In this document: positions 6,141-64,000 of the stretch, in pieces
Numbering within the stretch: the first letter of the stretch is position 1
Layout of the letters: each line of letters opens with the position of its first letter
Source: Ariolimax columbianus
Taxonomy: Eukaryota; Mollusca; Gastropoda; Stylommatophora; Arionidae
Direction of reading: 5' to 3'
Assembly (NCBI GenBank): GCA_036924085.1
Contig: JAVGWX010000001.1
Span: 1,321,103 to 1,385,102 of the forward strand
DNA length: 64,000 nt
Notes under the pieces: model-generated
The model's database searches: none
Seen by the model: only the letters and a program-made list of their open reading frames with translations
Told to the model about the DNA's origin: nothing
Program-made: the position numbers and the translations under genes

Positions 6141-6550
6141 GAGCTTGACTGGACTAGCGTCTCAGTTTCCCTGTTGATTAAAATTCTCCATTGATAAAAC
6201 TTTTTTTCTCCCATGTGTCTTCGGTAAAGTTGGTGTGCACCGAATGAGACCACTGTCTTAAGAGTATTGAACATAATATGCAGTTTTATAAAGGTGTAAA
6301 TCTGTGTGATGGACGTCTTCTTTCAAACTCATCAGGTTTTTTTCTCTAATTTTGTGTGTGCAACTATAACCAAATTAAGAGTTAACGTCAAACAGTCGAT
6401 GACAGGCCCTCCCTGGACTTGACTACTGGTGCTACCAGGAGAACAACTGAATGTACAGTGAGTTGATGAGATTCTCATCAAATAGTTGCTGATGATTTGT
6501 ATTCCCATTAGCCTATATATTTACTTATTCTCTCCCCCCCCCTACCCTAG

Positions 6551-6772
6551 CTTGTGGACACAACTGTGGAGATAGCCAATAAAGTAGGTGCCGCTGAGAT
6601 CATCGGCCGTGTGGTGGACGACCTGAAAGATGAGGCAGAGCAGTACCGCAAGATGGTGATGGAGACCATAGAGAAGATCATGTCTAACCTAGGAGCATCC
6701 GACATCGACTCTCGTCTTGAAGAGCAACTTATTGATGGTATTCTCTATGCTTTCCAGGAACAGACCACAGAG
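6551..6772 (+). CDS. SF3B1: SF3B1 exon with residues 833-906
   Basis: The exon has 74 codons from [18 protein letters not shown] to AFQEQTTE, phase 0 at both ends, and continues the C-terminal HEAT repeats. The donor is GAG|GTGAGT, a strong U1 match. The bases straddling this donor are the unit of the tandem array that follows directly. Use of a downstream copy would meet an in-frame TGA at codon 3 of the retained sequence (GTG AGT TGA), so mis-splicing should give a truncated, NMD-prone message. Confidence 0.97.
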
Positions 6773-8721
6773 GTGAGTTGAGTCTGGAGGTGAGTTGAGT
6801 CTTGAGGTGAGTTGAGTCTTGAGGTGAGTTGAGTCTTGAGGTGAGTTGAGTCTGGAGGTGAGTTGAGTCTGGAGGTGAGTTGAGTCTGGAGGTGAGTTGA
6901 GTCTTGAGGTGAGTCTTGAGGTGAGTTGAGTCTGGAGGTGAGTCTTGAGGTGAGTTGAGTCTTGGGGTGAGTTGAGGTGAGTTGAGTCTTGGGGTGAGTT
7001 GAGGTGAGTTGAGTCTTGGGGTGAGTTGAGTCTGGAGGTGAGTTGAGTCTGGAGGTGAGTTGAGTCTTGAGGTGAGTTGAGTCTGGAGGTGAGTTGAGTC
7101 TTGAGGTGAGTTGAGTCTGGAGGTGAGTTGAGTCTTGAGGTGAGTTGAGGTGAGTTGAGTCTGGAGGTGAGTTGAGTCTTGAGGTGAGTTGAGTCTTGAG
7201 GTGAGTTGAGTCTTGAGGTGAGTTGAGTCTTGAGGTGAGTTGAGTCTGGAGGTGAGTTGAGTCTTGAGGTGAGTTGAGTCTGGAGGTGAGTTGAGTCTGG
7301 AGGTGAGTTGAGTCTTGAGGTGAGTTGAGGTGAGTTGAGTCTTGAGGTGAGTTGAGTCTGGAGGTGAGTTGAGTCTGGAGGTGAGTTGAGTCTTGAGGTG
7401 AGTTGAGTCTTGAGGTGAGTTGAGTTGTCTTGAAGTGAATTGAGTCTGGAGGTGAGTTGAGTCTTGAGGTGAGTTGAGTCTTGAAGTGAGTTGAGTCTGG
7501 AGGTGAGTTGAGTCTTGAGGTGAGTTGAGTCTGGAGGTGAGTTGAGTCTTGAGGTGAGTTGAGTCTTGAGGTGAGTTGAGTTGTCTTGAAGTGAATTGAG
7601 TCTGGAGGTGAGTTGAGTCTTGAGGTGAGTTGAGTCTTGAAGTGAGTTGAGTCTGGAGGTGAGTTGAGTCTGGAGGTGAGTTGAGTCTTGAGGTGAGTTG
7701 AGTTGAGTCTTGAAGTGAGTTGAGTCTGGAGGTGAGTTGAGTCTGGAGGTGAGTTGAGTCTTGAGGTGAGTTGAGTCTGGAGGTGAGTTGAGTTTTGAGG
7801 TGAGTTGAGTTGAGTCTTGAAGTGAGTTGAGTCTTGAAGTGAGTTGAGTCTGGAGGTGAGTTGAGTCTTGAGGTGAGTTGAGTCTTGAGGTGAGTTGAGT
7901 CGGAGGTGAGTTGAGTCTTGAGGTGAGTTGAGTCTTGAGGTGAGTTGAGTCTTGAGGTGAGTTGAGTCTTGAAGTGAGTTGAGTTGTCTTGAAGTGAATT
8001 GAGTCTGGAGGTGAGTTGAGTCTTGAGGTGAGTTGAGTCTTGAAGTGAGTTGAGTCTGGAGGTGAGTTGAGTCTTGAGGTGAGTTGAGTCTTGAGGTGAG
8101 TTGAGTCTGGAGGTGAGTTGAGTCTTGAGGTGAGTTGAGTCTGGAGGTGAGTTGAGTCTTGAGGTGAGTTGAGTCTTGAGGTGAGTTGAGTTGTCTTGAA
8201 GTGAATTGAGTCTGGAGGTGAGTTGAGTCTTGAGGTGAGTTGAGTCTTGAGGTGAGTTGAGTCTTGAAGTGAGTTTAGTCTGGAGGTGAGTTGAGTCTTG
8301 AGGTGAGTTGAGTTGAGTCTTGAAGTGAGTTGAGTCTGGAGGTGAGTTGAGTCTGGAGGTGAGTTGAGTCTTGAGGTGAGTTGAGTCTGGAGGTGAGTTG
8401 AGTCTGGAGGTGAGTTGAGTTGAGTCTTGAAGTGAGTTGAGTCTTGAAGTGAGTTGAGTCTGGAGGTGAGTTGAGTCTTGAGGTGAGTTGAGTCTGGAGG
8501 TGAGTTGAGTCTGGAGGTGAGTTGAGTCTTTAGGTGAGGTGAGTTGAGTCTTGAGGTGAGTTGAGTTGAGTCTTGAGGTGAGATGAGTCTTGAGGTGAGT
8601 TGAGTCTTGAGGTGAGTAGAGTTGAGTCTTGAGGTGAGTTGAGTCTTGAGTTGAGTTGAGGTGAGGAGTTGAGTCTTGAGGTGAGTTGAGGTGATTTGAG
8701 TCTTGAGGTGAGGTGAGTCTT
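6773..8721. repeat. 17-bp minisatellite made of the exon 4 splice donor
   Basis: About 110 units of GTGAGTTGAGTCTTGAG or GTGAGTTGAGTCTGGAG, starting at the first base of the intron, so nearly every unit recreates GAG|GTGAGT. Some units contain an extra TTGAG or a short GTGAGTTGAG. A variant block containing TTGTCTTGAAGTGAATTG recurs near 7,425, 7,580, 7,985 and 8,190, which shows higher-order duplication. The last copies (after about 8,525) decay into irregular spacing. Confidence 0.97.
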
Positions 8722-9012
8722 AGAAGGCACCTTGTTAGGGCACAGGTAATGGGAGGTGCGAGTCTTAGAAGTCAGTTTGTTAGAGTACAGGTAATAGCAT
8801 TGACTTTAACAGTGCAGAACGTGTTTTCTTAGTTCCTGTATGTATGTGCTAGCTGGCCAATATATGGACGTGTCCAAAACATAACTTCTAGTTACACGTA
8901 TTATATTAGAAGTATGTGACAGCTTGTTTCGGTGCATGTTTTCTGTCATACAGGTGGGAGTTGCTTCCTCACCTGGCCTCTTCTCACAGCTCATTCAATG
9001 TTGCTATGATAC

Positions 9013-9282
9013 TGTCAGATATGTCCCTGTCCTCAGTCAATCAATCCACTATGTCCCTGTCCTCAGTCAATCAATCCACTATGTCCCTGTCCTCAGTCAA
9101 TCAATCCACTATGTCCCTGTCCTCAGTCAATCAATCCACTATGTCCCTGTCCTCAGTCAACCAATCCACTATATCCCTGTCCTCAGTCAACCAATCCACT
9201 ATGTCCCTGTCCTCAGTCAATCAATCCACTATGTCCCTGTCCTCAGTCAATCAATCCACTATGTCCCTGTCCGCAGTCAATC
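9013..9282. repeat. 30-bp minisatellite, left part (intron 4)
   Basis: About nine copies, exact period 30, with core CAGTCAATCAATCCACTATG and TCCCTGTCCT. It is interrupted at 9,283 by a retrotransposon and resumes at 9,866 with the same unit. Confidence 0.96.
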
Positions 9283-9865
9283 TTCTTCTTCTTCTTCTGC
9301 GTACACAGTCAGACAGTAACCATTATTTTTTCGAAAAAAGCGGCGGTCATCCTGAGACTCTCGCAACTACCATAGAGCTTGTCTTGCAGTTCTACTGGCA
9401 ATGGCCACATCTGCTCTCTCTGATCCCCGTATGTCGGGCAGTTCTGCAGCAGATGTTCAGTGGTCATTTTACCAGTACCGCACGGGCATTCGTCGGTACA
9501 CCCTATCTTCAATTTGTTGAATAGGTGGTACCTCAGTCTATTGTGGCCAGTGCGAAGTCTGAAGACAACGACCTGCTCTCTTCGGTTCAACTGGTAATAG
9601 GCATCGTTTTTGGTGTAACCAGTATGTTCGGTTTCCCATTTGGTCATGTACCTGGCTTTGATAAGCCGTTTTGACTCTTCGTACGTCATACTGGTATCTG
9701 TTTGTGGTAGCCTTGCACCTTCTTTTGCCAGTCTGTCTGCCTCCTCGTTGCCTTGGATGTTGCAGTGTGACGGAACCCACTGTACCACTACCCTTTTTGG
9801 TGCGGACAGCTGGCACAGTTTGCAGAGTGCTGCTCTTAAGTCATTAAGCTCAGTGTTTTTCTGCT
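9283..9865 (-). mobile_element. 5'-truncated non-LTR retrotransposon 3' end with RNase H (copy A)
   Basis: Read on the minus strand this is the 3' end of an I-superfamily-type element. The open frame (about 9,320-9,862) encodes the end of an RNase H domain (QWVPSHCNIQGNEEADRLAK, with the NEEAD aspartate) and a C-terminal zinc-knuckle-like CPCGTGKMTTEHLLQNC, ending IMVTV-stop. A (GAA)n tail follows, seen here as TTCTTCTTCTTC. The flanks CAGTCAATC at 9,274-9,282 and 9,866-9,874 look like a target-site duplication, but they also belong to the host array unit. The frame has no stop, so the copy is young, though far too short to move by itself. Confidence 0.9.
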
Positions 9866-10064
9866 CAGTCAATCAATCCACTATGTCCCTGTCCTCAGTC
9901 AATCAATCCACTATGTCCCTGTCCTCAGTCAATCAATCCACTATGTCCCTGTCCTCAGTCAATCAATCCACTATGTCTCTGTCCTCAGTCAATCAATCCA
10001 CTATGTCCCTGTCCTCAGTCAATCAATCCACTATGTCCCTGTCTTGAGTCAATCAATCCACTAT
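9866..10064. repeat. 30-bp minisatellite, right part (intron 4)
   Basis: Continuation of the array at 9,013-9,282 after copy A: about 6.5 copies of the same 30-bp unit in the same orientation. Confidence 0.96.
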
Positions 10065-10649
10065 TTCCACATCTTTCCTGTTTCCTTTATTTTTGTCCTG
10101 AAGTTCTCTTCTCCGTGTCTTTCTGAGTTTTCTATTTCTCTACCAAGGGGATTCCACAAATAGAGAATGTTTTGTAATGCTGTCAGCTAGTTTCCTTAAT
10201 GTATGCTACTTTGTTTCTACTATTGCTCATGTTTATTTCTATTATTGAATGAAGTTGTCATCAACTATAAGCGCGTTTGACTAAAGTTACAAGTTGTGTG
10301 TTCAATGAACCAGATATGTTGGCCGCACATTTTAGTCAGACATCTTCTTGATGGCTCTTTAATACATTTGATAACTGTCAATACAGTTGATGGTCCTTCA
10401 ATACAGTTGACTGCTGATATGAACAGACAGATAGAGCTACATCAGTTATGATGTTACATCACATGTTCATGCTGTGACAGTATGGGTTCCTGGGACAAAT
10501 TGGTGTGCCTGGCCAAGCAGTTTGTAACAAGGCAGCTGAGGACTGCTTGTTTGGATGATATAGCAGTCACACTATGCTTCATCACAAGGCATGCTTTGCT
10601 GTATCAGTGGACCCACTATGCTCCATAAAAGTGAATAGGAAATATTAAT

Positions 10650-11200
10650 AGTTTGCTGGTATTATGGCTACAATAGTCTGCTGGTATTATGGCTACAAGT
10701 CTGGTGGTATTATGGCTAAAATAGTCTGCTGGTATTATGGCTACAAGTCTAGTGGTATTATGGCTAAAATAGTCTGCTGGTATTATGGCTACAAGTCTGC
10801 TGGTATGGCTACAAGTCTGGTGGAATTATGGCTACAAGTCTGGTGGTATTAGGGCTACAAGTCTGGTGGTATTATCGCTACAAGTCTGGTGGTATTATGG
10901 CTACAAGTCTGGTGGTATTATGGCTACAATAGTCTGGTGGTATAATGGCTACAAGTCTGGCGGTATTATGGCTACAAGTCTGGTGGTATTAGGGCTACAA
11001 GTCTGGTGGTATTATCGCTACAAGTCTGGTGGTATTATGGCTACAAGTCTGGTGGTATTATGGCTACAATAGTCTGGTGGTATTATGGCTACAAGTCTGG
11101 CGGTATTATGGCTACAAGTCTGGTGGTATTATGGCTACAATAGTCTGCTGGTATTATGGCTACAATAGTCTGCTGGTATTATGGCTACAATAGTTTGTCT
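10650..11200. repeat. Mixed 20-27-bp minisatellite (intron 4)
   Basis: About 23 copies of TGGTATTATGGCTACAAGTC with or without an added AATAG, giving mixed unit lengths. A block of several units (10,805-10,935) is duplicated at 10,970-11,095. Confidence 0.95.
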
Positions 11201-11907
11201 ACCTCGGAAGCACACAGTTGAGATCAGTGACTTGCTGATGAGCAAAGGTGAGAGCAGCCTTTGGTCGAATGCTCTCAACACTGGGGGAACATCGAGTAAT
11301 CAGAATAATGGCTAAACTGATCTACTGTATCTCCATTGTCCCCACCCTACTCTGTGCACGTGAGAGCTGGATTGTCTAAGCTCATGATGCCAGGAGGCTA
11401 AATCATTTTCACATGAAATATCTGAAATACAAACTACATTTCCGCTGGAAGGTATCCACTGGCAGCGCCATATGACAAATAATGAAGTGCTATTCAGAGT
11501 CAATATGCCAGGTATTCCTGTATATACTCCCAATGTGGCTTCTGTATAGTGTAGGGTGACAATCATAGGGATGTCCTAAGCAATTGTTACAAGATGTCCC
11601 TTGAGTGCTGTCAAATAGACACTAACACCTGGGAAAAACTGGCTCAAAATTAGTCAGCCTAGAAAGGTGTGTTTAAAAAAAAATCACGTTGCAATCACTG
11701 AGTACCTTTGTTTTCAGTCAGCATTGGATAGATATGTGATCTAGAGCAGAGGGGTCATCTTTGACAGCTGTGGATTATTTTTGCATCTGTTTACAAGCAC
11801 ACACACACTCAAGGATACAGTATGATAGGATGATGTCAATGGCCTTCATCCACGACGATGGACCAATTTATTATCAGTTTACTGGATTATGACTACGATC
11901 TTCCTGT

Positions 11908-12306
11908 GACCATGTGACCACTTCCCTGTACCTTCATCTTACTCCAGCCAATCTTGCTGTGACCACTTCCCTGTACCTTCATCTTACTCCAGCTAATCTT
12001 GCTGTGACCACTTCCCTGTACCTTCATCTTACTCCAGCCAATCTTGCTGTGACCACTTCCCTGTACCTTCATCTTACTCTAGCCAATCTTGCTGTGACCA
12101 CTTCCCTGTACCTTCATCTTACTCTAGCCAATCTTGCTGTGACCACTTCCCTGTACCTTCATCTTACTCCAGCTAATCTTGCTGTGACCACTTCCCTGTA
12201 CCTTCATCTTACTCTAGCCAATCTTGCTGTGACCACTTCCCTGTACCTTCATCTTACTCCAGCTAATCTTGCTGTGACCACTTCCCTGTACCTTTATCTT
12301 ACTCCA
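11908..12306. repeat. 45-bp minisatellite adjoining the exon 5 acceptor
   Basis: About nine copies, period 45, with core GTGACCACTTCCCTGTACCT followed by TCATCTTACTCCAGC. Each unit carries a pyrimidine-rich CTTACTCCAG or CTTACTCTAG that resembles a 3' splice site. The real acceptor lies 33 bp further on. Confidence 0.95.
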
Positions 12307-12339
12307 TAGTGTTACATTTACATTGAATCCTCCCTCCAG

Positions 12340-12522
12340 GATGTGGTCATGTTAAATGGCTTTGGCACGGTGGTGAATGCCCTGAGCAAGCGAGTGAAGC
12401 CGTACCTGCCCCAGATGTGCGGTACTATCTTATGGCGTCTGAACAACAAGTCTGCTAAAGTCAGGCAACAGGCCGCTGACCTCATTTCTCGTATTGCAAT
12501 TGTGATGAAAACCTGCCAGGAG
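12340..12522 (+). CDS. SF3B1: SF3B1 exon with residues 907-967
   Basis: The exon has 61 codons, [19 protein letters not shown] through VMKTCQE, phase 0 at both ends. It follows TTE of the previous exon as in vertebrates (TTEDSVML), with V for S at the third position. The acceptor is CTCCCTCCAG|GAT and the donor GAG|GTGAGT is strong. It forms another part of the HEAT superhelix ([19 protein letters not shown] is the recognisable core). The bases at the donor recur once 39 bp downstream. Confidence 0.97.
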
Positions 12523-13150
12523 GTGAGTCAGCAGTTCGTACATCTGTACACATTCTGTATTGTGAGTCAGCAGTTCGTACATCTGTACACATTAGTCTGT
12601 ATTGTGTGTCAGCAGTTCGTACATCTGTACACATTAGTCTGTATTGTGTGTCAGCAGTTCGTACATCTCTGCACATTATTCTGTATTGTGTGTCAGCAGT
12701 TCGTACATCTGTACACAGTCTGTATTGTGTGTCAGCAGTTCGTACATCTCTGCACATTTTTCTGTATTGTGTGTCAGCAGTTCGTACATCTGTACACAGT
12801 CTGTATTGTGTGTCAGCAGTTCGTACATCTGTACACATTATTCTGTATTGTGTGTCAGCAGTTCGTACATCTGTACATTACTTACTTAGTCGCTCCTCTT
12901 CTACCGTGAGGTGTAGAGGTACATCTGTACATATTAGTCTGTATTGTGTGTCAGCAGTTCGTACATCTGTACATATTAGTCTGTATTGTGTGTCAGCAGT
13001 TCGTACATCTGTACATATTAGTCTGTATTGTGTGTCAGCAGTTCGTACATCTGTACACATTAGTCTGTATTGTGTGTCAGCAGTTCGTACATCTGTACAC
13101 ATTAGTCTGTATTGTGTGTCAGCAGTTTGTACATCTGTACATATTTGTCT
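12523..13150. repeat. 36-42-bp minisatellite starting at the exon 5 donor
   Basis: About 15 units with core GTCAGCAGTTCGTACATCTG then TACACATTAGTCTGTATTGT. The first unit begins at the intron's first base with GTGAGTCAGCAG. The second copy at 12,562 keeps GTGAGTCAGCAG and all later ones have GTGTGTCAGCAG, so donor strength has been lost in all but two copies. The array is split at 12,881-12,918 by a short hairpin sequence. Confidence 0.95.
12881..12918. repeat. Single hairpin unit inserted in the intron 5 array
   Basis: A 38-base segment containing CTCCTCTTCTACCGTGAGG and GTGTAGAGG interrupts the array and is flanked by GTACATCTGTACAT on both sides. It is clearly related to the 41-bp unit amplified in intron 8 (CTCCTCGTCTACCACGAGG then TATAGAGG). 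Confidence 0.75.
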
Positions 13151-13559
13151 GTATGCTGCTCTTCAACCTATATTTAGGGAAAACCTGGTTACCGAGCTTT
13201 GTTTTGTGTCAAAGCCGACATGAACTAGACGAGGATACAGTTACTGGTGGCCATGATTTTTCTGAATAATTTAGTGTTGGACTCAATTCATTCATGTGCC
13301 TACACCATAGCACGCTGAAAACTTTCCCATTGGCATCGAGTTCTTGAGCTGCTCAATGTTTTATAAGTTCCTGACCACAAAGATGGAGACTCTTATGGAT
13401 GTTGTCAAATGCACGCCAAAAAAAAGTATCAAATTGTACGCCTGTAGGAAGAAAAATCATAGCTTTTAACAGTCTAAATTGTGTTCAAAATAACAGTAAT
13501 GATAAGTCAGTTGAACTAAATATTTGCCCTGTTCGTGAAGGAAAATAATTGGTATATAT

Positions 13560-16354: not shown

Positions 16355-16533
16355 GAAAAACTGATGGGTCACCTGGGCATTGTGTTGTACGAGTACCTGG
16401 GAGAAGAGTATCCTGAGGTACTGGGTTCCATCTTGGGCGCCTTGAAGGCCATTGTCAATGTCATTGGAATGACCAAGATGACCCCTCCAATTAAAGACCT
16501 CCTACCTAGATTGACACCAATTTTGAAAAACAG
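16355..16533 (+). CDS. SF3B1: SF3B1 exon with residues 968-1026 (plus 2 bases of R1027)
   Basis: The exon encodes [20 protein letters not shown] through LTPILKN and the first two bases of the Arg codon (AG|A). Phase 0 in, phase 2 out. The donor is CAG|GTTGGT, weak at +3 and +5 for U1 pairing. Substitutions from the vertebrate protein are few (I for V in GVVLYEY, T for H in GMHKMTPP). The donor sequence is repeated every 39 bp downstream. Confidence 0.97.
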
Positions 16534-17133
16534 GTTGGTTGTATGTTTGCATGGGTTGATGGGTAAAGGCAGGTTGGTTGTATGTTTACATGGGTTGATG
16601 GGTAAAGGCAGGTTGGTTGTATGTTTACATGGGTTGATGGGTAAAGGCAGGTTGGTTGTATGTTTACATAGGTTGTATGTTTACATGGGTTGATGGGTAA
16701 AGGCAGGTTGGTTGTATGTTTACATGGGTTGATGGGTAAAGGCAGGTTGGTTGTATGATTACATGGGTTGATGGGTAAAGGCAGGTTGGTTGTATGTTTA
16801 CATGGGTTGTATGTTTGCATGGGTTGATCGGTAAAGGCAGGTTGGTTGTATGTTTACATTGGTTGATGGGTAAAGGCAGGTTGGTTGTATGTTTACATGG
16901 GTTGATGGGTAAAGGCAGGTTGGTTGTATGTTTACATTGGTTGATGGGTAAAGGCAGGTTGGTTGTATGTTTACATGGGTTGATGGGTAAAGGCAGGTTG
17001 GTTGTATGTTTACATTGGTTGATGGGTAAAGGCAGGTTGGTTGTATGTTTACATGGGTTGATGGGTAAAGGCAGGTTGGTTGTATGTTTACATTGGTTGA
17101 TGGGTAAAGGCAGGTTGGTTGTATGTTTACATT
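16531..17133. repeat. 39-bp minisatellite seeded at the exon 6 donor
   Basis: About 15 units beginning CAGGTTGGTTGTATGTTTAC, then ATGGGTTGATGGGTAAAGG. The CAG of the first unit is the end of exon 6 and GTTGGT is its donor. The next copy of the donor starts at 16,573. Two units are internally shortened (near 16,665 and 16,800). The array continues after copy B at 17,999. Confidence 0.96.
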
Positions 17134-17998
17134 CTAAGCTTTATATCGAAAAACTACCCAAGCATGGACTGGACCCATGCATACACCGACGGTTCTGTAA
17201 CAAACACTACACAGAACTAAGGGGCAGGAGCATTCCTGAACCTACCAAATGGCAGAAAAATAACACTGTCATTCGCTACTGGTAAGTACGCAAGCAATTT
17301 CAGAGCGGAGGCAGAGGCACTGAGGGCGGCAGTGGAAGAAATGGGGACACACAAAGAAAATGAAAGCCATATAGTCCTGCTTACGGATGCTCTCGCCGTA
17401 GTCACATCGCTAAAAAGCCAGAAAAACACTGAGCTTAATGACTTATACTCTGCAAACTATGCCAGCAGTCCGCACCAAAAAGGGTAGTGGTACAGTGGGT
17501 CCCATCACACTGCAACATCCAAGGCAACGAGGAGGCAGACAGACTGTCAAAAGAAGGCGCAAGACTACCACAACCAGATACTAGTATGACGTACGAAGAG
17601 TCAAAACGGCTTATTAAAGCCAGATACATGACCAAATGGGAAACTGAACATACCGGCTACACCAAAAACGATGCCTATTACCAGCTGAACAGAAGAGAGC
17701 AGGTCGTTGTCTTCAGACTTCGCACTGGCCACAATAGACTCGGATACCACCTATTCAACAAATTGAAGATAGGTGGTACCGACGAATGCCCATGTGGTAC
17801 CGGTAAAATGACCGCTGAACATCTGCTGCAGAACTGCCCGACATACGAGGATCAGAGAGAGCAGATGTGGCCATCACCAGTGGAACTGCAAGACAAGCTC
17901 TATGGTAGTGGCGACAGCCTCAGGATGACCGCCGCTTTTTTCGAAAAAATAATGGTTACTGTCTGACTGCGTACGATGAAGAAGAAGAAGAAGAAGTA
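17134..17998 (+). mobile_element. 5'-truncated non-LTR retrotransposon with RNase H (copy B)
   Basis: An 865-bp copy of the same family as copy A, in sense orientation. It holds nearly the whole RNase H domain: the YTDGS-type motif near 17,180, the AEAEAL glutamate near 17,315, LTDALAVV near 17,390 and SHCNIQGNEEADRLSK near 17,500. The CPCGTGKMTAEHLLQNC tail module, the end IMVTV-stop at 17,966 and a (GAA)n tail follow. The frame breaks between about 17,215 and 17,480, so the domain is not made intact. A target-site duplication GTATGTTTACATT lies at 17,121-17,133 and 17,999-18,011. The target is the host's own 39-bp array. Confidence 0.93.
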
Positions 17999-18730: not shown

Positions 18731-19175
18731 TTGAACGGGTGCTGGAAATAGACCCTCGGAAGACAGGTCAGTTTTACCCTACTAATGACAGGGCGTTGCT
18801 ACGGTAATCCTGCTTAACTCGAGAGGAGCCGCAGACATTTGGTTCACATACTAGGCTGATAAGCCAACGGCGCGAGGCTACAAGGTGAGGGATTACGGCC
18901 GAACGCCTCTAAGCCAAAATCCCGCGCAAAAGCTCAGCACGATTGCAAGGGGAGGCTCCGACATGGTGGGGACCTGGGGCTCCAGCCCCGCCCGGTCGAG
19001 CCGCAGAATGAGGTCTCTGCCGTCCGCCGATCAAAGCAGGTGGGAAGCTGCTCGATATTCACCCCATACGGCGATGAGGTATGAAACCATTTGTAGAAGA
19101 CTTAGTTCTCGGTCGGGGTGCCCTAAGCAGTAGATCAGCTACCTCACTGCGAACTGCTGAGACTCAACCCTTGAC
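18731..19175 (+). pseudogene. 28S rRNA 3'-end pseudogene fragment
   Basis: The order and wording of the 28S 3' domain are recognisable: AGACAGGTCAGTTTTACCCT at 18,761, GGTAATCCTGCTTAACTCGA near 18,800 (including the A/P-site-proximal 'GTAATCCTGCTCAGTACGAGAGGAAC' stretch in altered form), GACATTTGG, GAACGCCTCTAAGCCAAAAT near 18,900, and the terminal part AAACCATTTGTAGAAGACTT near 19,083 to CTCACTGCGAACTGCTGAGA. Several substitutions and a short indel in the 18,855 region show it is not functional. It sits inside a minisatellite in an SF3B1 intron, so it is a transposed or retroposed rDNA fragment. Confidence 0.85.
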
Positions 19176-19247
19176 CATGAGATATGTCCGCACCAGGCGA
19201 ACAACATCTCTGTGCAATGACCAGACTTGTCCCCTGGTCAAATGCAC

Positions 19248-20530: not shown

Positions 20531-22600
20531 ATTGACTGACTTGGTCACTCCTCGTCTACCACGAGGTATAGAGGGACTGACTTGGTCACTCCTCGTCTAC
20601 CACGAGGTATAGAGGGACTGACTTGGTCACTCCTCGTCTACCACGAGGTATAGAGGGACTGACTTGGTCACTCCTCGTCTACCACGAGGTATAGAGGGAC
20701 TGACTTGGTCACTCCTCGTCTACCACGAGGTATAGAGGGACTGACTTGGTCACTCCTCGTCTACCACGAGGTATAGAGGGACTGACTTGGTCACTCCTCG
20801 TCTACCACGAGGTATAGAGGGACTGACTTGGTCACTCCTCGTCTACCACGAGGTATAGAGGGACTGACTTGGTCACTCCTCGTCTACCACGAGGTATAGA
20901 GGGACTGACTTGTTCACTCCTCGTCTACCACGAGGTATAGAGGGACTGACTTGGTCACTCCTCGTCTACCACGAGGTATAGAGGGACTGACTTGGTCACT
21001 CCTCGTCTACCACGAGGTATAGAGGGACTGACTTGGTCACTCCTCGTCTACCACGAGCTATAGAGGGACTGACTTGGTCACTCCTCGTCTACCACGAGGT
21101 ATAGAGGGACTGACTTGGTCACTCCTCGTCTACCACGAGGTATAGAGGGACTGACTTGGTCACTCCTCGTCTACCACGAGGTATAGAGGGACTGACTTGG
21201 TCACTCCTCGTCTACCACGAGGTATAGAGGGACTGACTTGGTCACTCCTCGTCTACCACGAGGTATAGAGGGACTGACTTGGTCACTCCTCGTCTACCAC
21301 GAGGTATAGAGGGACTGACTTGGTCACTCCTCGTCTACCACGAGGTATAGAGGGACTGACTTGGTCACTCCTCGTCTACCACGAGGTATAGAGGGACTGA
21401 CTTGGTCACTCCTCGTCTACCACGAGGTATAGAGGGACTGACTTGGTCACTCCTCGTCTACCACGAGGTATAGAGGGACTGACTTGGTCACTCCTCGTCT
21501 ACCACGAGGTATAGAGGGACTGACTTGGTCACTCCTCGTCTACCACGAGGTATAGAGGGACTGACTTGTTCACTCCTCGTCTACCACGAGGTATAGAGGG
21601 ACTGACTTGGTCACTCCTCGTCTACCACGAGGTATAGAGGGACTGACTTGGTCACTCCTCGTCTACCACGAGGTATAGAGGGACTGACTTGGTCACTCCT
21701 CGTCTACCACGAGGTATAGAGGGACTGACTTGGTCACTCCTCGTCTACCACGAGGTATAGAGGGACTGACTTGGTCACTCCTCGTCTACCACGAGGTATA
21801 GAGGGACTGACTTGGTCACTCCTCGTCTACCACGAGGTATAGAGGGACTGACTTGTTCACTCCTCGTCTACCACGAGGTATAGAGGGACTGACTTGGTCA
21901 CTCCTCGTCTACCACGAGGTATAGAGGGACTGACTTGGTCACTCCTCGTCTACCACGAGGTATAGAGGGACTGACTTGGTCACTCCTCGTCTACCACGAG
22001 GTATAGAGGGACTGACTTGGTCACTCCTCGTCTACCACGAGGTATAGAGGGACTGACTTGGTCACTCCTCGTCTACCACGAGGTATAGAGGGACTGACTT
22101 GGTCACTCCTCGTCTACCACGAGGTATAGAGGGACTGACTTGGTCACTCCTCGTCTACCACGAGGTATAGAGGGACTGACTTGTTCACTCCTCGTCTACC
22201 ACGAGGTATAGAGGGACTGACTTGGTCACTCCTCGTCTACCACGAGGTATAGAGGGACTGACTTGGTCACTCCTCGTCTACCACGAGGTATAGAGGGACT
22301 GACTTGGTCACTCCTCGTCTACCACGAGGTATAGAGGGACTGACTTGGTCACTCCTCGTCTACCACGAGGTATAGAGGGACTGACTTGGTCACTCCTCGT
22401 CTACCACGAGGTATAGAGGGACTGACTTGGTCACTCCTCGTCTACCACGAGGTATAGAGGGACTGACTTGGTCACTCCTCGTCTACCACGAGGTATAGAG
22501 GGACTGACTTGTTCACTCCTCCTCTACCACGAGGTATAGAGGGACTGACTTGTTCACTCCTCCTCTACCACGAGGTATAGAGGGACTGATTTGGTCACTC
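20531..22600. repeat. 41-bp hairpin minisatellite (intron 8)
   Basis: About 50 head-to-tail copies, period exactly 41. Each contains CCTCGTCTACCACGAGG, a 6-bp perfect stem (CCTCGT/ACGAGG) with a 5-base loop, followed by TATAGAGGGACTGACTTGG. Copies are almost identical. A variant ending CTTGTTC instead of CTTGGTC starts at 20,909, 21,565, 21,852, 22,180, 22,508 and 22,549, at spacings that are whole multiples of 41 (16, 7, 8, 8 and 1 units). The last copies (22,520 on) diverge. Confidence 0.98.
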
Positions 22601-22625
22601 CTCCTCTACATGTCTTGGTGTGTAG
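22600..22625. repeat. Head of a dispersed hairpin-containing repeat
   Basis: CTCCTCTACATGTCTTGGTG followed by TGTAGATGTC resembles the segment at 41,533-41,570 (CCTCTTCTACCATTTGGGGT then AGATGTCTTC). It looks like the parent element of the 41-bp array, here with its remaining body displaced to about 22,930. Confidence 0.5.
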
Positions 22626-26750: not shown

Positions 26751-27129
26751 TATTTAAAATATCTATTTGTAATCCAGATGTGTGATCTTTGGTCTGATCA
26801 AATAATAAATTATGTCTCATTTCTTTCTCAAGTCCAACTTTCTTAGTGTCGAATGTGTCAACTTTGATGCTCTCAAATGTCTGCCTCCCTGAAATAACTC
26901 TACAGTTAAACTTTCCCATAGGTTTCTTGAACAACTGAAGTTGTGGAAACCAAATAATAGGAATTAATGCGTGTTTTAGAACTCAACCTCGGTCAACTTG
27001 AGCGCAATTTGAGATCTTGCGGGTGATCAGCACTGGCCAAATCCAGCTGTCAATAGTTAGGCATCCAGGTCATAGATATGGCCTTCTGGCACTTTTATAG
27101 CTACCTGACATTGAGCCTGAATTTGCATG

Positions 27130-27404
27130 ACTAATCAATCATTATGTTCTGGTCACGTCTGTTTCGTCCGACTAATCAATCATTCTGTTCTGGTCACGCC
27201 TGTTTCGTCCGACTAATCAATCATTCTGTTCTGGTCACGCCTGTTTCGTCCGACTAATCAATCATTATGTTCTGGTCACGCCTGTTTCGTCCGACTAATC
27301 AATCATTCTGTTCTGGTCACGTCTGTTTCATCCGACTAATCAATCATTATGTCCTGGTCACGCCTGTTTCGTCCGACTAATCAATCATTCTGTTCTGGTG
27401 ACAG
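27130..27404. repeat. 41-bp minisatellite built from the exon 10 splice junction
   Basis: Units start GGTCAC at 27,151, 27,192, 27,233, 27,274, 27,315 and 27,356. The next step of 41 lands at 27,397 on GGTGACAG, the true acceptor. Each unit continues GCCTGTTTCGTCCGACTAAT, while exon 10 continues GGCCTGTTTCATCCAGCAAG, so the unit contains a copy of the exon's first 12-15 bases. Units lack the AG, and so cannot serve as acceptors. Confidence 0.93.
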
Positions 27405-27563
27405 GGCCTGTTTCATCCAGCAAGGAAAGTACGTGATGTGTACTGGAAGGTATATAACACTGTATACATTGGAGCACAGGATGGACTGATCCCAGCATAT
27501 CCACGGATTCCCAATGATGCCAAGAACCAGTATGTGCGATACGAGCTGGACTATGTTCTGTAG
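27405..27563 (+). CDS. SF3B1: SF3B1 last coding exon, residues 1253-1304 and stop
   Basis: The exon encodes [20 protein letters not shown] through [10 protein letters not shown], then TAG at 27,561-27,563. It has 52 codons, as in the vertebrate protein, whose end (RYELDYIL) matches. Upstream GGTGACAG serves as acceptor despite a poor pyrimidine tract, because the intron end is made of an expanded repeat. [12 protein letters not shown] replaces the vertebrate HYPRIYNDDKNT. Confidence 0.97.
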
Positions 27564-61611: not shown

Positions 61612-62118
61612 CCACATACCTGGGATCCCTCATCAATGACAAGCTCTCTCTAGACCCAGAAATAGACCCCACACCTGGGATCCCTCATCAATGACAAGCT
61701 CTCTCTAGACCCAGAAATAGACCTCACATACCTGGGATCCCTCACCAATGACAAGCTCTCTCTAGACCCAGAAATAGACCCCACATACCTGGGATCCCTC
61801 ATCAATGACAAGCTCTCTCTAGACCCAGAAATAGACCCCACATACCTGGGATCCCTCATCAATGACAAGCTCTCTCTAGACCCAGAAATAGACCTCACAT
61901 ACCTGGGATCCCTCATCAATGACAAGCTCTCTCTAGACCCAGAAATAGACCCCACATACCTGGGATCCCTCATCAATGACAAGCTCTCTCTAGACCCAGA
62001 AATAGACCCCACATACCTGGGATCCCTCATCAATGACAAGCTCTCTCTAGACCCAGAAATATACCCCACAAACCTGGGATCCCTAATCAACAAGCTCTCT
62101 CTAGATCCAGAAATAGAC
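61612..62118. repeat. 57-bp array of a retrotransposon coding segment
   Basis: About nine copies, period 57, each coding TYLGSLINDKLSLDPEIDP, the 'YLGS.I...LS.D.EI..RI' segment after the RT thumb of non-LTR ORFs. As 57 is a multiple of three the frame is kept through most units. The first unit is 55 bp. Confidence 0.96.
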
Positions 62119-62232
62119 CCCACATTGACGAAGCTGCTGCCACATTTGCTCGCCTCCCAAAGCGTGTCTGGAAAAACCAGAAACCGGCAATTCAAAACAA
62201 GACCATGGTATACGATGTCTATGTCGTCAGCG
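62119..62232 (+). pseudogene. Single-copy RT ORF segment between two arrays
   Basis: It reads DEAAATFARLPKRVWKNQKP then AIQNKTMVYDVYVVSE, the stretch that normally joins the YLGS segment to the LLYGSETWT segment in non-LTR ORFs. It shows that both neighbouring arrays derive from the same ORF. Confidence 0.85.
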
Positions 62233-64000
62233 AGACGGACAACTTATGTGACGTCAGCACACTCCTATATGGCAGCGAGACTTGGACAACTTATGTGAGG
62301 TCAGCACACTCCTATATGGCAGCGAGACTTGGACAACTTATGTGACGTCAGCAGACTCCTATATGGCAGCGAGACTTGGACAACTTATGTGGGGTCAGCA
62401 CACTCCTATATGGCAGCGAGACTTGGACAACTTATGTGACGTCAGCACACTCCTATATGGTAGCCAGACTTGGACAACTTATGTGAGGTCAGCACACTCC
62501 TATATGGCAGCGAGACTTGGACAACTTGTGTGACGTCAGCACACTCCTATATGGCAGCGAGACTTGGACAACTTATGTGACGTCAGCAGACTCCTATATG
62601 GCAGCGAGACTTGGACAACTTATGTGGGGTCAGCACACTCCTATATGGCAGCGAGACTTGGACAACTTATGTGACGTCAGCACACTCCTATATGGCAGCG
62701 AGACTTGGACAACTTGTGTGACGTCAGCACACTCCTATATGGCAGCGAGACTTGGACAACTTATGTGACGTCAGCACACTCCTATATGGCAGCGAGACTT
62801 GGACAACTTATGTGAGGTCAGCACACTCCTATATGGCAGCGAGACTTGGACAACTTATGCGAGGTCAGCACACTCCTATATGTTAGCCAGACTTGGACAA
62901 CTTATGTGAGGTCAGCACACTCCTATATGGCAGCGAGACTTGGACAACTTATGTGAGGTCAGCACACTCCTATATGGTAGCCAGACTTGGACAACTTATG
63001 TGAGGTCAGCACACTCCTATATGGCAGTGAGACTTGGACAACTTATGTGAGGTCAGCACACTCCTATATGGTAGCCAGACTTGGACAACTTATGTGAGGT
63101 CAGCACACTCCTATATGGCAGCGAGACTTGGACAACTTATGTGAGGTCAGCACACTCCTATATGGTAGTCAGACTTGGACAACTTATGTGAGGTCAGCAC
63201 ACTCCTATATGGTAGCCAGACTTGGACAACTTATGTGAGGTCAGCACACTCTTATATGGCAGCGAGACTTGGACAACTTATGTGAGGTCAGCACACTCTT
63301 ATATGGCAGCGAGACTTGGACAACTTATGTGACGTCAGCACACTCCTATATTGCAGCGAGACTTGGACAACCTATGTGACGTCAGCACACTCCTATATGG
63401 CAGCGAGACTTGGACAACTTATGTGAGGTCAGCACACTCCTATATGGTAGCCAGACTTGGACAACTTATGTGAGGTCAGCACACTCCTATATGGCAGCGA
63501 GACTTGGACAACTTATGTGAGGTCAGCACACTCCTATATGGTAGCCAGACTTGGACAACTTATGTGAGGTCAGCACACTCCTATATGGCAGCGAGACTTG
63601 GACAACTTATGTGAGGTCAGCACACTCCTATATGGTAGCCAGACTTGGACAACTTATGTTAGGTCAGCACACTCCTATATGGCAGCGAGACTTGGACAAC
63701 TTATGTTAGGTCAGCACACTCTTATATGGCAGCGAGACTTGGACAACTTATGTGAGGTCAGCACACTCCTATATGGTAGCCAGACTTGGACAACTTATGT
63801 GAGGTCAGCACACTCCTATATGGCAGCGAGACTTGGACAACTTATGTGAGGTCAGCACACTCCTATATGGCAGCGAGACTTGGACAACTTATGTGAGGTC
63901 AGCACACTCCTATATGGCAGCGAGACTTGGACAACTTATGTGAGGTCAGCACACTCCTATATGGCAGCGAGACTTGGACAACTTATGTGAGGTCAGCACA
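62233..64000. repeat. 47-bp array of a retrotransposon coding segment (runs off window)
   Basis: About 37 copies, period 47, coding (D/E)VSTLLYGSETWTTY in one frame per unit. Because 47 is not a multiple of 3 the frame changes at each unit. Main variants: TGACGTCAG versus TGAGGTCAG, and GGCAGCGAG versus GGTAGCCAG. The second half is mostly TGAGGTCAG. The array is not complete at the window end. Confidence 0.97.

Follow-up and report, generated by a model that had tools for sequence, protein, structure and literature searches.

In human genetics, minisatellites cluster at chromosome ends, and the minisatellite of the human 6-16/G1P3 gene is said to carry multiple splice donors, judging from the title of Turri et al. 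1995. In this gene (IFI6), two downstream minisatellite units are said to be used as donors, giving isoforms (PMC4526556). Closer in form are the “mirage” minisatellites of amphioxus, which two papers describe in Adh3, troponin C, the globins BflGb6/BflGb9 and PGBD5, and which are tandem repeats that span exon-intron boundaries, on the donor or the acceptor side, with many copies retaining AG/GT (PMC3087553, PMC3902484). According to the same papers, mirage units measure 10-160 bp, the BflGb6 mirage has 6 and 3 units in two haplotypes, and regular splicing is reportedly undisturbed, cryptic use being thought possible (PMC3087553, PMC3902484). Herein we describe an array at a splice donor of the gastropod SF3B1 gene, located in a 64-kb stretch of DNA (the window, G000:C1:1321103-1385102, from an assembly of 2.29 Gb in 401 contigs) in whose coordinates positions are given unless another contig is named. 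Contig C401 of the assembly carries a COX1 that can be read with the invertebrate mitochondrial code; among 7999 candidates scored, its best match is Deroceras (90%), and gastropods, land snails and slugs among them, make up most of the top of the 120 matches listed, a chiton and flies ranking lower, which makes a stylommatophoran gastropod very probable as the source.

The SF3B1 exon map, which was built using human SF3B1 as the query, comprises 19 exons from −36696 to 27563, with GT at 18/18 donors and AG at 18/18 acceptors, and may lack a short exon in the region of human residues 141-167. Exon E13 (6551..6772, + strand, phase 0/0, 222 nt) translates into 74 residues, and the match to human SF3B1 covers 74/74 of them (E 3.1e-37), which confirms the gene identity proposed in an earlier note on this DNA. 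The exon is preceded by an acceptor AG at 6549-6550 and terminates in GAG|GTGAGT at 6772|6773, exactly where that note had placed its end; the label “exon 4” given there is a count within the window, of whose full exons it is the fourth, and the gene-wise number is 13 of the 19 mapped. Intron 13 (6773..12339, + strand, 5567 nt) separates it from E14 (12340..12522, + strand), which likewise terminates in GAG|GTGAGT.

A 17-bp tandem array occupies the exon-proximal part of this intron (6770..8721, + strand, unit GAGGTGAGTTGAGTCTT/G). TRF called it at 6770-8690 with period 17 and 112.8 copies, and donor anchors extend it to about 8721, giving 116 anchors in total: 93 exact GAGGTGAGT, 11 GAAGTGAGT, four GAAGTGAAT, three GGGGTGAGT, two GAGGTGAGG and three singletons. 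An array of about 110 donor copies at the start of the intron, as first noticed, is thus borne out. Unit 1 includes the authentic donor, which is counted among the 93 exact anchors, so that it faces 92 exact rivals. The earlier description of GAG|GTGAGT in nearly every copy is right for most copies but too generous for the exact 9-mer, which is present in 80% (93/116), and the unit, said to start at the first intron base, does lie at the exon/intron boundary but begins on the last three exon bases, at 6770. Unit length is 17 bp in 93 units and 5 to 27 in the others, and most of the odd units sit at the exon-distal end. Tandem arrays are generally error-prone in assemblies, yet the order of unit variants is irregular, just two runs of 8 units being reported to recur, and 401 contigs for 2.29 Gb suggests a long-read assembly, so an assembly artefact is scarcely credible here. 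On the antisense of 6770-8721, two of three frames are stop-free over 650 codons, probably as a consequence of unit composition.

The phase of the array takes in the last codon of E13 itself, which supports an origin by local duplication: a stretch made up of the final codon of the exon and the first 14 bases of the intron would have been tandemly duplicated, and the array would then have expanded inside the intron to its present size of about 116 copies. When the assembly was scanned for pairs of GAGGTGAGT placed 17 bp apart, 98 hits were obtained, 67 of them within the E13 array, whereas the remaining 31 carry different spacers, leaving the spacer of the E13 unit confined to the E13 array among the 98. 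These results bear on the possibility that the array was imported with a chance donor match, or that selection at the exon determined where its edge lies. Arrays are indeed dense in this region (61 merged within the 64-kb window), but the E13 unit is found nowhere else among the 98 pattern hits and three arrays stand in register with three donors (see below), and we therefore regard such an origin as improbable. The reversed control pattern gave 155 hits against the 98, i.e., the genome as a whole shows no surplus of tandem GAGGTGAGT pairs, and an enrichment of strong-donor arrays as such is accordingly not shown. On another contig (L017, 4460-4760), a second 17-bp GAGGTGAGTGATGGAAT array runs from a candidate exon end. 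For the other GAGGTGAGT arrays, a reading of one (L018) as an exon (MNEEEEDTDFE) was dropped; it adjoins what by eye is a retroelement RNase H frame.

The U1 genes of this genome begin ATACTTACCTG in the four copies read among the 42 matches listed; a cluster of U1 snRNA matches, many of them ~1.9 kb apart, lies at G000:C13:25323280-25394539. The calculated U1 duplex of the authentic E13 donor is −10.8 kcal/mol, in agreement with the claim that GAG|GTGAGT pairs well with U1, and the same value is obtained for 92/116 anchors of the array, the authentic donor included. All of the 41 exon-nearest copies are strong donors (38 at −10.8 and three at −10.4), and the weak copies (−5.7 or −2.5, n = 15) occur only beyond them. 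The strong pressure on splice fidelity that had been supposed has thus left no trace in the array, given that strong donors are kept nearest to the exon and weak ones lie farther off. Among the 93 units of 17 bp, the variable columns are −1 (0.26), +5 (0.10) and one spacer column (0.48), and conservation is not higher in the donor columns than in those of the spacer, i.e., donor-specific conservation is absent. RNA folding of the E13 end plus the first units was no better than that of shuffles (z +1.03). The codons directly 3′ of E13 read GTG AGT TGA, which upholds the claim that any later donor copy introduces an in-frame TGA.

The density of U1-complementary sites is specific to this intron, since VAGGTRAGT occurs 92 times on the sense strand of intron 13 and 0 times in the other 17 mapped SF3B1 introns. 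Among 48 arrays in SF3B1, strong sense-strand donors were found in the E13 array only, and the sense-strand donor content of the others was like that of controls, as scored with a rough matrix. Such density would suit telescripting, in which many bound U1 particles would block premature polyadenylation in the long intron 13, and the intron does hold 13 occurrences among ten weaker polyadenylation hexamer variants. Its sense strand, however, is devoid of AATAAA and ATTAAA, and intron 8, which has 12 of these hexamers, has no VAGGTRAGT, so that the telescripting platform suggested in the earlier note lacks support and appears most improbable to us. The absence of AATAAA/ATTAAA from intron 13 is itself unremarkable, as introns 3, 4, 11 and 16 are likewise without them, the other 17 introns combined having 39 on the sense strand. 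The juxtaposition of AG|GT in most copies raises another possibility, namely a recursive splicing ladder with each AG|GTGAGT copy being a ratchet point at which a donor is restored. By the equally rough acceptor matrix, the 97 AG|GTGA sites of the array score at or below −2.1 (median −7.0), all of them below the authentic SF3B1 acceptors (−0.8 to 7.4), and acceptor-grade sequence before AG|GT was found at none of the 97, which makes such a ladder barely conceivable.

Each SF3B1 junction was self-aligned with its own adjacent intron and compared with 60 shuffles, and 4/36 boundaries proved to be duplicated there: the donors at 6772, 12522 and 16533 (3/18 donors) and the acceptor at 27405 (1/18 acceptors), each scoring above the best shuffle (38 v 22 for E13; 32 v 22, 36 v 23 and 43 v 24 for the others). 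By the same test, no duplication in the adjacent intron was seen at the remaining 32/36 boundaries. The E14 array (12523..13154, + strand) consists of a ~42-bp unit that starts from the first intron base, with 14 units by anchor, one of them 96 bp; units 1-2 carry GTGAGT and the other 12 GTGTGT. Exon E15 (16355..16533, + strand) terminates in CAG|GTTGGT, which is also carried by the 39-bp units of its array (16531..17133, + strand; 15 units by the anchor CAGGTTGGT), two of which measure 56 bp, each with an extra partial unit without CAG. On the acceptor side, the last exon E19 (27405..27563, + strand, stop codon included) is preceded by an array at 27129..27399 (+ strand) whose 41-bp unit matches the pre-acceptor stretch of E19 plus the first exon bases. 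The authentic site reads GTGACAGGG, whereas six copies read GTCACG and AG is absent from the entire acceptor array; since the six copies share a single change, this loss was possibly one event.

The position of array starts relative to donors was assessed by rotation (64,160 rotations), in which 3 of the 18 SF3B1 donors with an array start no more than 3 nt away stand against a mean of 0.096 expected (fraction 0.00017), the fraction being 0.004 within 12 nt. Because the E13 array had prompted the question, we repeated the statistic without it, which gave 2/17 against a mean of 0.088 within 3 nt (fraction 0.0026), with fractions of 0.0099 within 6 nt and 0.036 within 12 nt. Array ends show little excess near acceptors by position alone (0/18 within 3 nt, 1/18 within 6 and 2/18 within 12, fraction 0.049), and they do not reach significance at either 3 or 6 nt.

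Several further arrays lie close to SF3B1 junctions. An array with a 51-bp unit (−13992 to −10114, L009/L010; 76 copies that are 99% identical) starts 17 nt downstream of the E7 donor; a weak-homology hint had made E7 a candidate boundary array, and it was rejected in the boundary test (15 v 21). A 41-bp array at 20534-22609 lies 81 nt downstream of the E17 donor, and its 99% matches across 50.6 copies suggest recent growth. Just upstream of E14, a 45-bp array (11913-12306) repeats acceptor-like CCTTCATCTTACTC(C/T)AG, five copies of which score 4.4, the authentic acceptor at 12340 scoring 3.4 (rough matrix), and the use of which would be a frameshift; intron 13 thus begins with copies of a donor and ends with copies that resemble an acceptor.

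Tandem repeats account for some 40% of the SF3B1 introns and for 39% of the whole window. We sampled 4-kb pieces 1.32 Mb from the contig starts (one per contig, six contigs), taking contig starts as chromosome ends, which they presumably are, and found a mean tandem-repeat fraction of 53% (range 14-78%) as against 6% (range 1-10%) in six interior samples. For comparison, PRPF8 (contig C15, at 32 Mb) has a tandem-repeat content of 2.3% in 56 kb around its exons, and none of the 28 tests of donors and 27 of acceptors made there, with a reach of up to 1.5 kb, flagged a boundary array. The PRPF8 scan covered 20/42 candidate places. Its junctions were picked by a script using the rough matrices; a few of these junctions are incorrect, and the terminal exon's end was treated as a donor. 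A flag meant more than 2 points over the shuffle maximum, three acceptors that exceeded it by 2 being uncounted. SF3B1 is the single gene that represents contig ends in these tests. Taken together, the repeat fractions of the contig-start samples against those of the interior and PRPF8 place SF3B1 in an array-rich region, in which some of the arrays take in a junction. Other repeats in the window include a 57-bp and a 47-bp array (61612-64000) whose units by eye resemble parts of retroelement reading frames, the 47-bp unit shifting the frame in every copy. Introns 13 and 15 contain two closely similar ORFs (9312-9872 on the − strand and 17442-17963 on the + strand, respectively) that look by eye like retroelement RNase H ends, and intron 15 also holds a large-subunit rRNA fragment (18790-19185, Rfam RF02543, 79.6 bits).

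The comparison across junctions also informs on whether the E13 array could serve SF3B1 itself. As SF3B1 is a splicing factor, and the authentic donor has 92 exact rivals, nearly all equal to it in calculated U1 pairing and every one giving GTG AGT TGA, changing levels of U1, SR proteins or the spliceosome could in principle move splicing to later donors, with TGA leading to decay and SF3B1 so setting its own dose. We consider this distinctly unlikely, since the arrays at other SF3B1 junctions have weak donor copies, contig-start samples are repeat-rich regardless, and the donor columns are not better conserved than the spacer. It is also highly unlikely that the donors form a ladder in use, which would read U1/spliceosome activity via competition from late donors, again with TGA leading to decay, and in which array length would set the dose of the gene. 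The self-regulation or special role in SF3B1 that the earlier note put forward is therefore without support, with boundary arrays at 3/18 donors and 1/18 acceptors of a gene in a repeat-rich region close to a contig end. The presence of three donor arrays in a single gene might nevertheless reflect a donor-directed bias, mutational or functional, which is a counterpoint to simple tolerance, although the three may not be independent because E13, E14 and E15 are neighbors.

We thus favor, with a probability of about 0.78, the view that the E13 array is a tolerated splice-junction minisatellite of the mirage kind that arose by local duplication and leaves the exon-adjacent donor in use. Its setting would be an array-prone region close to a chromosome end, the array probably being a by-product of repeat growth there. 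Splicing from the exon-adjacent donor would leave the mRNA unchanged and remove the array with the intron, so that copies downstream of the authentic donor could multiply as long as the first donor is used, and the array is presumably neutral. Transcripts spliced from a later copy would meet a stop within three codons, and nonsense-mediated decay of such mis-spliced SF3B1 RNA is to be expected. Acceptor copies, by contrast, precede the exon and might be encountered before the authentic site, a view that the loss of AG in the E19 copies fits. Choice of the first donor by position is the likeliest mechanism. If two strong donors are occupied at the same time, the intron-proximal site is reportedly favored (Eperon et al. 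1993), which would predict that the last copies are in use and makes donor choice a real question. The locus represents an extreme natural competition experiment, in which 92 exact copies, all within 2 kb, rival the authentic donor and every one of them would break the frame, and donor choice here could separate synthesis order, exon definition and acceptor proximity. It also suggests a contrast, in that extra donors downstream can stay intact whereas the single set of extra acceptors lost AG.

As in the amphioxus mirages, the unit of the E13 array contains the exon-intron boundary, starting on the last exon codon, and both sides are hit within SF3B1 (donors of E13, E14 and E15, acceptor of E19), with units of 17, 42, 39 and 41 bp that fall inside the range of 10 to about 160 bp given in the mirage papers. 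Unlike the mirages, which are from cephalochordates, the SF3B1 case comes from a gastropod, reaches about 116 units and involves four junctions of one gene. With IFI6 it shares minisatellite units that contain splice donors, those of SF3B1 being predicted from sequence, but open isoforms of the IFI6 kind are not predicted from the later units: GTG AGT TGA follows E13, and the unit length of 17 cannot be divided by 3. The abundance of tandem repeats near contig starts recalls the minisatellite clusters of chromosome ends, from which the SF3B1 region differs in that its arrays reach splice junctions of a housekeeping gene; boundary minisatellites are thereby linked with repeat growth near chromosome ends. 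Among the matches listed in the open-access literature (titles and abstract openings), none was a mollusc boundary minisatellite. The E13 array belongs to the known splice-boundary minisatellites, which it extends from amphioxus to a mollusc; it is new in its phylum as far as this search reaches, and extreme in copy number compared with the cases described.
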